Shown in pieces: positions 16,062-19,983 of a DNA stretch of 64,000 bases; position 1 is the stretch's first letter, and each line of letters starts with the position of its first letter. The translations under genes were made by a program, and so were the position numbers. The stretch spans positions 1 through 64,000 of the forward strand of contig CAJXBG010000004.1 in NCBI GenBank assembly GCA_913050215.1, given 5' to 3'. Under the pieces are notes generated by a model. The model was given only the letters and a program-made list of their open reading frames with translations, was not told the DNA's origin and made no database searches. This stretch comes from an uncultured Gammaproteobacteria bacterium. Its GTDB lineage: Bacteria; Pseudomonadota; Gammaproteobacteria; Pseudomonadales; Azotimanducaceae.

Positions 16062-17042
16062 ATGATGGAATACCGACAATTAGGTAGATCTGCCCTGCAG
16101 GTGAGTGAACTATGTCTGGGCACGATGAATTTTGGTCCCCGCACACCAGCCAGTGAATCGTTTGAAATACTCAACGAGGCAGTTGGCGCAGGTATTAACT
16201 TTATTGATACAGCGAACCAGTATGGTGGTGAGCTTGGCGTAGGCGCGACTGAAAAAATATTAGGTCGCTGGTTTGCAGAAGATAAATCTCGCCGAGACCA
16301 GGTGGTACTTGCAACGAAAGTTCATGAGCCGATGTCCGGCAGGGTGAATGACCGCGGGTTGTCAGCACGTCATATTCAGATGGCCTGTGATGCCAGTTTG
16401 AAGCGCCTGGGCGTTGATCATATCGATCTTTATCAGATGCATCACATAGACCGTAGCGCGCCAATTGAAGAAATCTGGCAGGCAATGGAGCGCCTAGTGA
16501 CCCAGGGTAAGATTACCTATGTTGGCTCTAGCAATTTTCCCGGATGGGCCATTGCACGAGCGAATGAAAAGGCGAATGCTCGACATCAGCTCGGTTTGGT
16601 ATCTGAACAAAGCCTGTTTAATTTGATTGAACGTAGAGTTGAACTTGAGGTGATGCCCGCATGTCGGGAATATGGCCTCGGGCTGATTCCCTGGAGCCCG
16701 CTAGCCGGTGGGTTGTTAGCCAATAGCGATGAAAAGCAAGAGGCAAAGGGTGTGGGCCGGCGCAATTCGGTTGATATGATTAAAGCAATGACCCAACGAT
16801 CAGAGCAACTGAGACAATACCGAGTGTTATGTCAGAAGTTAGGCGAGTCCCCGAGTGCAATCGCACTGTCGTGGTTGTTACATCAACCCTGCGTTTCGGC
16901 CACGATTGTCGGGCCCGCGAATGTTGATCAATTAAAATCAGTCTTGCATGTGCCGCAGATCAGACTTGATGTATCGACCTTAAAACAGCTCGATGAAATA
17001 TTTCCACCCTGCGGTGAAGCGCCTGAAGCCTATGCTTGGTAA
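16062..17042 (+). CDS. Aldo/keto reductase
   Basis: A 326-residue barrel reductase with YRQLGRSALQVSELCLGTMNFG, FIDTANQYGG, LATKVH and YQMHHIDRSAP, giving the Asp-Tyr-Lys-His set. It is a distant paralogue of the reductase on the other side of the PhyH gene. Two ATG codons in tandem (16062 and 16065) could both start it. The 11-base gap after the PhyH gene suggests co-transcription and sequential action on one substrate. Confidence 0.9.
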   Translation: MMEYRQLGRSALQVSELCLGTMNFGPRTPASESFEILNEAVGAGINFIDTANQYGGELGVGATEKILGRWFAEDKSRRDQVVLATKVHEPMSGRVNDRGLSARHIQMACDASLKRLGVDHIDLYQMHHIDRSAPIEEIWQAMERLVTQGKITYVGSSNFPGWAIARANEKANARHQLGLVSEQSLFNLIERRVELEVMPACREYGLGLIPWSPLAGGLLANSDEKQEAKGVGRRNSVDMIKAMTQRSEQLRQYRVLCQKLGESPSAIALSWLLHQPCVSATIVGPANVDQLKSVLHVPQIRLDVSTLKQLDEIFPPCGEAPEAYAW

Positions 17043-17234
17043 TAGCCTTTGACCGATAGTGCTGAGTTAATTTGAGTGCTCGCTATTTTTCTAGGCAAAT
17101 GGGAATGGTTTCGGTTGGGTGCAGCGCCTGCGTGTTAACCACTTTCCTTAGCGCAGTGTAAATTGAACACCCCCGGTATGATGTGATGAGTCTGAATAAA
17201 ACCAAGCCCAAAAAAGTTGAGTGACGGCATGTTG

Positions 17235-17250
17235 CGACGCAGCTGCGTCG
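17235..17250. promoter_or_regulatory. 16-bp perfect palindrome upstream of the selenoprotein gene
   Basis: CGACGCAGCTGCGTCG is a perfect inverted repeat 50 bases before the ATG at 17301, in the 258-base gap after the aldo/keto reductase. It could be an operator or a leader hairpin. I see no regulator gene beside it and no other copy that I noticed. I see nothing else clear in this gap. Confidence 0.45.
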
Positions 17251-17300
17251 AGAGTAGTCTTTAGAAAGCACTCACACTAAGATCAAAAGAGGCTTTTGTC

Positions 17301-18185
17301 ATGGCTGAACCAGTAAAGTATATTGACCGGACCCGCGATTATTACCTGTCTCAGGGTTATGCTAAACCTTATCAATGGGCGCATTTTGACCAGATCCCCT
17401 TTTCCAGATTAGCCAAACCGCTTTCCGAATGCCGAGCGACCTTGATTTCTACCAGTGACGTAGCGATACGCAACCCTGACGGAGAAGGTCGTGATAAGCG
17501 TCATGAAGATCTGGTAGGCAGTGCCTATGTCATTCCCACGGAGACACCTGAAGAACTATTGTTTAGTCGTCAGGAGCACTATGACCAGCATGCAACACAT
17601 CTAGATGATGTCAATTCCTACTTTCCAATATCCAGATTAAAGGAGCTGGTTGCGCTTGGTAGGCTGCAAAGCCTTGCGCCTCGGTGCCACGGTGTTTATA
17701 CCGCCTATAGTCAGAAACGTACGCTGGAAGTTGATGCGCCTGAGGTGCTGCGCAGGTGCCGAGAGGACGAAGTGGACATAGCGGTGCTTACCCCTGTGTG
17801 ACCCGTTTGCCACCAGACCGTGAGTCTGGTTGCCCGCCATCTTGAAGCTAACGGAATTCCAACCGTCATGATCGCGACTGCGAAAGATATTGTGCAGAAT
17901 TGTGGAGTACCCAGACTGTTGTTTGTTGATTTTCCCCTTGGTAACCCTTGTGGTGTTCCATTTGATATCAACATGCAGTCGGACATACTGGAGTCTGCCC
18001 TTGGTCTGTTAGAAACAGCCGAGCAATCAGGCGACACCACTGTCGCACCTTATGTTTGGCCTGAAGGTGAAGCATGGAAAGAGACAATATTTACATCTGA
18101 ACAGCCATTTCTTGAGGGTGAGGCATATGATAATTGGATGGCCGCGAAACAGCGTTATCGAAACCAAAAGAAAGAAGAGCGATAA
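17301..18185 (+). CDS. Selenoprotein, GrdB/PrdB (glycine/betaine/proline reductase B) family, in-frame UGA read as Sec
   Basis: Conventional reading gives a 166-residue ORF ending in VDIAVLTPV and a second ORF in the same frame. Read through the TGA at 17799-17801 they make one 294-residue protein with LTPV-U-PVCHQTVSLVARHLEANG, so Sec167 and Cys170 form a UxxC redox motif. Family similarity runs on both sides of the TGA. A stem-loop 17 bases after the TGA fits the bacterial SECIS rule. AGAGG precedes the ATG by eight bases. It is shorter than classical GrdB, and probably a redox protein of an aerobe rather than a fermentative reductase. A glutaredoxin-like gene follows directly. A simple nonsense mutation is the alternative. 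Confidence 0.88.
17802..17834 (+). promoter_or_regulatory. Candidate bacterial SECIS element
   Basis: Directly after the UGA, ACCAGAC (17812-17818) pairs perfectly with GTCTGGT (17824-17830), closing the five-base loop CGTGA. Two further pairs (G-C and C-G) follow beyond a single C-U mismatch. The loop begins 17 nt after the UGA and has G at its second position. Bacterial SECIS elements are known to need a small apical loop with G in the first two bases at about 16-37 nt from the UGA, so this site satisfies the rule. It is also coding sequence. Confidence 0.8.
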
Positions 18186-18431
18186 ATGGGACAACCAGAG
18201 CTGATTATATACTCAACGCCCCTTTGTGCGCCCTGTGACGTGTTGAAACGGATCCTGACTACCGAAGGACTGAGCTTTGAGGTTAAAGACTTGATGGTCG
18301 ATGAAGCCGCAGCGGAATTAATGGACCAAAATAGTATCCGGACCGTGCCTGTGCTAGGTATCAACGGGGCGCTGCATCACGGGGATGCATTGAGACCTGA
18401 AAAACTGGTAGCACTTTTGGATTTCGAATAA
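18186..18431 (+). CDS. Glutaredoxin-like protein
   Basis: An 81-residue thioredoxin-fold protein. LIIYSTPLCAPCDVLKRIL carries the CxxC active site (CAPC), TVPV the cis-Pro, and HHGDAL the end of the fold. It begins immediately after the selenoprotein stop (TAA then ATG with no gap), so the two are almost certainly co-transcribed. By position it may reduce the selenenylsulfide of the Sec protein; this is inference. The length matches short glutaredoxins. Confidence 0.88.
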   Translation: MGQPELIIYSTPLCAPCDVLKRILTTEGLSFEVKDLMVDEAAAELMDQNSIRTVPVLGINGALHHGDALRPEKLVALLDFE

Positions 18432-18591
18432 GAGCAGATTCAAGTTCAGCAAAAATATTTCGTTCAAGTTTTTTTCAGGGTTTGGAGCGCGTACGATCAG
18501 GATTGCTGTACCAGACCATTGTCGGTAGCATCGTGGTTACCTTTTGACCGCCTCCATTCGGGCCGTTTTTTATGTTTTTACGGGAGTATAT

Positions 18592-19983
18592 GTGAGCAAT
18601 CTGGTTGAACAACTCGCGCTTATTGTTGGTGACAAAGCTGTCCTCAGTGGTGAAATGCTCAAAGAGCGTGCGACATCGTATTGGGATTCCGCACCCACGC
18701 AGGCGCAGGTTTTGGTCAAGCCTGCATCCACAGAAGAAGTGAGTCGTATTCTTGCTCACTGCTTCAGTCTGAATCAGAGTGTTGTGATACAAGGCGGCTT
18801 AACCGGCGTGGTCGCCGGTGCAAAATCAGCGAGTGATGATGTCATTTTGTCGCTGGAACGTCTGACTGAAATTGAGGCAATCGACAGCCAAGAAGGCGTA
18901 GCCACAGTGCAAGCCGGGGTTGTTTTGCAGCGGCTTCAAGAGGAGTTGGCAACTAAAAATTTGCTTTTTCCGCTGGATTTAGGTGCTCGGGGCAGTTGCA
19001 CTATCGGGGGGAATGTAGCGACGAATGCTGGAGGCATTAACGTACTCCGATATGGCATGGTGAGAAATCTAGTGGTGGGGCTTGAAGTCGTATTGATGGA
19101 CGGGACGATAATGTCGTCTATGTATCCCATGTTAAAAAATAATACTGGCTATGATTTAAAGCAACTCTTCGTTGGCAGCGAGGGGACGCTAGGCGTTATC
19201 ACGAAGGTCATGGTTCGATTGTTCCCCCTTCCTACCAGTCGGCAGACTGCGATGATCGCTGTTGACTCGTTTGAGCATGTGATCGATTTGTTAAATCAGT
19301 TCCGCAAGGGACTCGCAGGTACACTGAGCGCCTTTGAGGTTATGTGGCAGAAATACTATTGCGGCGTCACTGGAGACGGCGATCACAAGCCGCCGATGAG
19401 CAGAGACTATCCTTTTTACATTCTGGTCGAAGCAGAGGGTTTTGATAATTCCTCTGATCGATTTCGTTTTGAGAAGTTGTTGGAGATAGCTTTCGAGCAG
19501 GGGAAGATTTGTGATGCCATCATTCCAACATCTGATCGAGAAAGGGCTGAGTTATGGATCGTAAGAGAAGAATTTGATCCATTGCTTCCCTCGTATCTTT
19601 ATGATGTTAGCCTGCCGCTAAAACATATGCTCGAGTACACAGATGAGCTTGAGCAAAGACTGAAAGCCGAAATCGGCAATGTTGAAAGTGTGGTGTTCGG
19701 TCATATCGCTGACGGCAACCTCCATATATTCGTGCGTCCTTCAAGTGATCAAGCTTATGCCAAACCTAACGAGCATGAGGAGGTGAACAAGATTGTGTAT
19801 GGTTCGCTGAAAAATTACGGTGGTTCGGTATCGGCAGAGCATGGTATTGGTCTGGAAAAAATGGCATGGCTGAATATTAATCGCAGTCATACGGAATTGA
19901 ACCTGATGCGCTCGATAAAATGCGCACTTGATCCTAAAAACCTGCTCAACCCCGGCAAAGTGTTTTCATTAGCTAATCTATGA
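18592..19983 (+). CDS. FAD-binding oxidase, GlcD / D-2-hydroxyacid dehydrogenase type
   Basis: A 463-residue flavoprotein of the FAD-binding type 4 (VAO) family. It holds VIQGGLTGVVAGA, LGARGSCTIGGNVATNAGGIN and NNTGYDLKQLFVGSEGTLGVIT for FAD binding, and the C-terminal SAEHGIGLEKMAWL with the family His. Members oxidise D-lactate, glycolate or D-2-hydroxyglutarate. I chose the GTG at 18592 because GGGAG lies six bases upstream; a TTG at 18544 is open but has no such site. The stop overlaps the next gene as ATGA. Confidence 0.9.
   Translation: MSNLVEQLALIVGDKAVLSGEMLKERATSYWDSAPTQAQVLVKPASTEEVSRILAHCFSLNQSVVIQGGLTGVVAGAKSASDDVILSLERLTEIEAIDSQEGVATVQAGVVLQRLQEELATKNLLFPLDLGARGSCTIGGNVATNAGGINVLRYGMVRNLVVGLEVVLMDGTIMSSMYPMLKNNTGYDLKQLFVGSEGTLGVITKVMVRLFPLPTSRQTAMIAVDSFEHVIDLLNQFRKGLAGTLSAFEVMWQKYYCGVTGDGDHKPPMSRDYPFYILVEAEGFDNSSDRFRFEKLLEIAFEQGKICDAIIPTSDRERAELWIVREEFDPLLPSYLYDVSLPLKHMLEYTDELEQRLKAEIGNVESVVFGHIADGNLHIFVRPSSDQAYAKPNEHEEVNKIVYGSLKNYGGSVSAEHGIGLEKMAWLNINRSHTELNLMRSIKCALDPKNLLNPGKVFSLANL

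Follow-up and report, generated by a model that had tools for sequence, protein, structure and literature searches.

A PrdB-like gene with an in-frame UGA, very probably a selenocysteine codon, and its linked glutaredoxin gene

The 64-kb window (the whole stretch of DNA analysed, 64,000 nucleotides) carries a PrdB-like gene with an in-frame TGA codon, followed directly by a glutaredoxin-like gene. The features of the locus are as follows:

17301-18185, plus strand: predicted PrdB-like selenoprotein gene (294 aa in the read-through frame, Sec at residue 167)
17799-17801, plus strand: UGA codon, very probably selenocysteine (U167); TGA in all close homologues among the matches listed, and a Cys codon in L061, Roseomonas and Haematobacter
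17808-17810, plus strand: codon of Cys170, the UxxC partner; unchanged throughout the 23-sequence alignment A1, and Asp in one paralogous clade
17812-17830, plus strand: putative bacterial SECIS hairpin (stem of 7 bp, loop of 5 nt with G as its second base), from RNA fold, pairing and frozen silent sites
18093-18182, plus strand: C-terminal extension, residues 265-294, which marks the glutaredoxin-linked clade and is different in sister clades
18186-18431, plus strand: glutaredoxin-like gene (81 aa, active site CAPC; PF00462 39.9 bits, cut-off 22.9)

Standard gene calling splits 17301-18185 into two ORFs (166 and 121 aa), as the original prediction had stated. The single frame that it had proposed was also present when the sequence was re-read: it opens at ATG 17301, passes through TGA 17799-17801, and ends at TAA 18183-18185, and with the TGA taken as selenocysteine (Sec), it yields 294 residues, in which the motif LTPV-U-PVCHQT holds both U167 and C170. 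We conclude that this is very probably one gene, broken in appearance only, with the UGA specifying selenocysteine.

The hairpin behind the UGA reads ACCAGAC-CGTGA-GTCTGGT (stem 17812-17818/17824-17830), and weaker lower pairs extend it to 17805-17837. Its position, stem, loop CGTGA, and loop G were as predicted; the distance of 17 nt from the UGA given for the hairpin was not, the stem starting 10 nt and the loop 17 nt after that codon. On both strands of the window, a comparable 7-bp hairpin follows 32 of 2633 TGA codons (1.2%), and TGA 17799 is the only one that has both a hairpin (threshold 6 bp) and 60 open codons on each side. The RNA fold of the region beats shuffles with a z of -2.5. 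An Rfam search of the window gave no match, and a promoter and terminator scan of 17000-18700 revealed nothing usable above shuffles.

These single-sequence tests (chance count and fold z) carry much less weight than the comparative evidence for the hairpin and the UGA. Across 56 aligned loci, 92% of stem cells were paired, versus 16-34% with slid partners. Compensatory changes were observed at 17813/17829 (C-G to T-A in 14 sequences) and at 17817/17825 (A-T to T-A in two), and the pair 17816/17826 changed from G-C to A-T in three sequences. Pairing in 55 distinct Sec sequences exceeded that in all 2000 column shuffles, a control that ignores relatedness. The hairpin codons CAG ACC GTG AGT CTG were identical in 19 out of 19 members of the window's clade, while codons of invariant residues adjoining the hairpin used two to four synonyms in the same members. 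In the Cys-containing homologue L061, stem pairs and the loop G are lost. The UGA is thus followed by a SECIS-type hairpin with covariation; together with the Sec or Cys in the homologous column and the sel genes described below, this supports the original prediction.

The genome from which the window comes (258 contigs, 98% complete) contains adjoining selA (582 bits) and selB genes, a gene for tRNA-Sec (selC) with anticodon TCA, and selD, that is, all four sel genes. At L034:4389-6620 (G000:C75), SelD makes up the second, C-terminal half of a protein of 743 aa that has a CGGC motif; the N-terminal part, judged by eye, is NADH-dehydrogenase-like, and the protein resembles Ndh-SelD fusions reported in an ocean-metagenome study (PMC2398784).

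Of 207 genomes searched within the same bacterial family, 119 gave a match at E values up to 1e-60, every match listed having exactly one in-frame TGA, and a scan of species genomes revealed TGA-containing relatives in Gamma- and Alphaproteobacteria, Actinomycetota (Acidimicrobiia), Chloroflexota, and Hydrogenedentota. Three more distant homologues, L061 (NCPVCHQT) and proteins of cultured Roseomonas and Haematobacter, have Cys at the Sec site. In a sample of the family, the gene was present in 35 of 37 genomes, and a SelA match likewise in 35 of 37; among other families of the order, the gene was found in one of 21 genomes, and that genome has SelA. SelA therefore accompanies the gene across the sampled genomes. 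One genome (G032, 85% complete) contains the TGA gene, with no selA seen in it, and counts against the Sec reading. Judging by the conserved UGA, the SECIS-type hairpin, and the complete Sec machinery, selenium would be inserted at U167, and we consider it close to certain that UGA 17799-17801 encodes Sec.

A protein search of the source genome revealed five PrdB-like selenoprotein genes, each with exactly one in-frame TGA, and these fall in different clades. Several paralogues were noted along the way. One paralogous clade (L030:9065-9859, G000:C28; L070:1467-2276) has UPLD for UPVC, with Asp in place of the resolving Cys, and at a Hydrogenedentota locus, a UPLD paralogue directly follows a selenoprotein gene of the window type and its glutaredoxin gene. 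At L031:4634-7557 (G000:C96), a PrdB-like Sec gene has on one side a kynureninase gene, which overlaps its ORF, and on the other an enoyl-CoA hydratase gene; these neighbours may hint at a substrate pathway. At L032:12077-13236 (G000:C110), behind a TonB-dependent receptor gene, there is a distant and longer Sec paralogue (UPICTGAV, no HQ), which is cut off by the contig end.

The best family match of the protein is TIGR04483 (PrdB), with an E value of 5e-32 over residues 34-252, and its score of 111.2 bits is set against a cut-off of 300; the GrdB-type model TIGR01918 scores 22.6 bits against a cut-off of 65.45. A Pfam search with the protein gave nothing significant, PF07355 not being listed at E up to 0.1; PF07355 was listed for 18 of 23 homologues, and the GrdB and PrdB models match all 23. 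Identity to the PrdB proteins of Enterococcus and Peptoclostridium (NCBI-annotated) is 28-29%; the Sec column, UxxCH, and H171 are shared, as are several motifs away from the redox site. The column of U167 holds Sec or Cys in GrdB/PrdB-type homologues, as in PrdB of D-proline reductase. The claim that the protein belongs to the GrdB/PrdB family thus stands in the wide sense, as homology across the Sec-containing core, and does not stand at the level of the curated GrdB and PrdB cut-offs of Pfam and NCBIfam, none of which the protein reaches.

PrdA, the pyruvoyl proprotein, gave no match at all in the source genome, and none above the cut-off in 58 genomes, 36 of which contain a PrdB-like gene. 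GrdA is absent from the source genome; an equivalent search found it in a relative (G020). That relative, which belongs to the same family, contains a glycine reductase-type cluster (L096, G020:C195) with TGA-containing GrdA and GrdB genes, so the search detects such genes where they exist. Membership in D-proline reductase and in glycine reductase was rejected, the scores being below the cut-offs and PrdA and GrdA missing. The protein appears to be a stand-alone PrdB relative without PrdA or GrdA, which may share the chemical principle of D-proline and glycine reductases.

The start codon of the glutaredoxin gene (18186) comes directly after the stop codon of the selenoprotein gene. Its product scores above the gathering score of PF00462 and has the CxPC motif in the form CAPC; it lies below all NCBIfam subfamily cut-offs. 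In the clade marked by the C-terminal extension, a glutaredoxin gene came next after the selenoprotein gene at 17 of the 18 distinct loci for which downstream DNA was available, in four phyla, and at several of these the two genes overlap by 4 nt; L075 is the sole clade member without a glutaredoxin nearby. No sister-clade locus had it directly downstream (0 of 36), and Fisher's test of the link between clade and glutaredoxin gives a p of about 1e-13, one duplicate row (L036=L068) being included. The long form of the gene was found in seven of the 207 family genomes, with a glutaredoxin beside it in all seven, a count not independent of the locus count, since several loci match identical sequences in both. 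In one genome (G090), the glutaredoxin gene (L101:1128-1352, G090:C68) and the long-form gene lie side by side on opposite strands and point away from each other; linkage of the pair thus survives inversion. In a further genome (G196), the glutaredoxin is present but no match to the long form was found. The original prediction was right that the principle is not new, and made no mention of this linked gene.

When flanking genes were clustered around the fetched loci, only common types recurred beyond the PrdB-like family and glutaredoxin. Neighbours other than glutaredoxin vary, and the gene neighbourhood therefore points to no substrate; a substrate assignment on this basis was dropped, no other neighbour being conserved across the fetched loci. 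At many loci the gene is overlain by long antisense ORFs, which we regarded as artefacts of codon bias.

In the tree, the extension clade is supported at 100/100 and includes members of four phyla. Since it occurs in four phyla and in only seven of 207 family members, horizontal transfer of the gene pair is suggested, to which misbinned contigs in metagenome-assembled genomes could contribute. A sister-clade gene on a record titled Klebsiella pneumoniae (L083, CAMATU010000002.1) groups with marine relatives in the tree, and this label is probably wrong.

The AlphaFold2 model of the 294-residue protein (pLDDT 88.7, pTM 0.89) is continuous across the UGA and places U167 directly before a helix, 168-183. 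A redox-active residue at the start of a helix is a feature of other redox-active sites of this type. A Foldseek search of the PDB with the model revealed no chain that stands out (best E 0.011), VIA-align gave Z values no higher than 8.4, spread over many unrelated alpha/beta folds, and a sequence search of the PDB gave no match. As far as the model goes, the structure search points to neither a new fold nor a relative.

We propose that SelB and Sec-tRNA would read the UGA as Sec owing to the hairpin just behind it, and that the product would be a single-chain PrdB-like reductase. In this scheme, the attack on an electrophilic substrate would come from Sec167, in the manner of GrdB and PrdB; Cys170 would then resolve the product by forming a selenenylsulfide, which the glutaredoxin from the downstream gene would reduce in turn. 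Acidimicrobiia (Actinomycetota) are, to our knowledge, not expected to use glutathione; the pair is also present there, so the reductant need not be glutathione. We give this explanation as a whole, a stand-alone selenium-dependent reductase with Sec167 attack, Cys170 resolution, and recycling by its own glutaredoxin, a probability of roughly 60%. A broader proposal, which we hold at slightly below even odds, is that the pair is a two-gene, pyruvoyl-independent selenium reductase system with a new substrate, horizontally spread across four phyla, and that most of the abundant marine selenoproteins called 'proline reductase' are misnamed and belong to this wider group lacking PrdA.

Three other readings were weighed. 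The two ORFs seen by a standard gene caller could reflect a pseudogene, a sequencing error, or a true stop with two proteins, but this TGA recurs in more than 100 other genomes, where coding similarity continues on either side of it, Cys replaces it in other homologues, and silent sites are frozen in the hairpin only. This reading is hardly credible, and pseudogene and sequencing error were rejected given the recurrence of the TGA across the family genomes (119 of 207 with a match). That the protein is the PrdB subunit of a true D-proline reductase is what marine selenoproteome surveys would imply by naming the family proline reductase PrdB (PMC1088965, PMC2398784); the best family match, the shared UxxCH motif, and the identity to annotated PrdB of about 28-29% agree with it. 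However, the score is 111 bits against a cut-off of 300, PrdA is missing both from the source genome and, above the cut-off, from all 58 genomes, including the 36 with a PrdB-like gene, prdA is near prdB in one cluster in Enterococcus, and authentic PrdB sequences are set apart in the tree. We therefore regard a D-proline reductase as very unlikely.

A more serious competitor, though still an unlikely one, is a peroxidase or general thiol-disulfide enzyme that takes electrons from the glutaredoxin and does not reduce C-X or C-N bonds. The UxxC at a helix start, a weak similarity to Thioredoxin_3 (E 0.013), and the glutaredoxin partner itself are consistent with it, while homology that extends over the full PrdB core (34-252) and takes in motifs away from the redox site argues against it. 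With no clear match to a solved structure, the fold does not decide between a peroxidase and a bond reductase. We favour the stand-alone reductase recycled by glutaredoxin. The 'PrdB' proteins of ocean metagenomes are interpreted there in terms of amino-acid (D-proline) metabolism; with PrdB-like genes in 36 of 58 related genomes and PrdA above the cut-off in none, this interpretation is probably wrong here, and the linked glutaredoxin provides a concrete partner for finding what PrdB-like enzymes do.

Papers of 2005 and 2008 reported PrdB-type UxxC selenoproteins from marine bacteria, in sets of 42 and 235 sequences (PMC1088965, PMC2398784), and 'PrdB' is among the commonest ocean-metagenome selenoproteins (PMC2398784). 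'Proline reductase' accounts for 6.4% of selenoprotein genes in another survey (PMC9402790), and a 2026 review lists D-proline reductase with UxxC, its operon section naming no glutaredoxin pair (PMC13188914). The selenoprotein therefore belongs to a known family. The glutaredoxin-linked, PrdA-less clade is a variant of which we found no description in the open-access literature, although an earlier description is possible.

Compared with PrdB of D-proline reductase (TIGR04483), the protein is alike in a core of about 220 residues, in UxxCH, and in Sec in the same column; it differs in scoring below the cut-off, in extra N- and C-terminal segments, and in the lack of PrdA in its genome, and its gene adjoins a glutaredoxin gene and not prd genes, whereas in Enterococcus prdB is clustered with prdA, prdC, and prdD. 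With GrdB, GrdF, and GrdH (PF07355; glycine, sarcosine, and betaine reductases), it shares a C-terminal core with Sec and UxxC, but GrdB models are about 435 aa long and these enzymes work with GrdA and GrdE, of which GrdA is absent from the source genome. The Sargasso Sea and GOS 'proline reductase PrdB' proteins are, like it, UxxC selenoproteins of marine bacteria, and these sets very probably include the glutaredoxin-linked clade; the accessible parts of both papers describe neither a glutaredoxin pair nor a lack of PrdA (PMC1088965, PMC2398784). The Roseomonas and Haematobacter proteins, titled 'Glycine/sarcosine/betaine reductase selenoprotein B family protein' at NCBI, are 41-47% identical over most of its length, and differ in Cys at the Sec position and in the absence of an adjacent glutaredoxin in their annotation. 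Finally, the small downstream protein resembles glutaredoxin and NrdH-type redoxins (PF00462) in size and in the CxPC motif, and here it is linked, as a gene, to a clade of selenoproteins.
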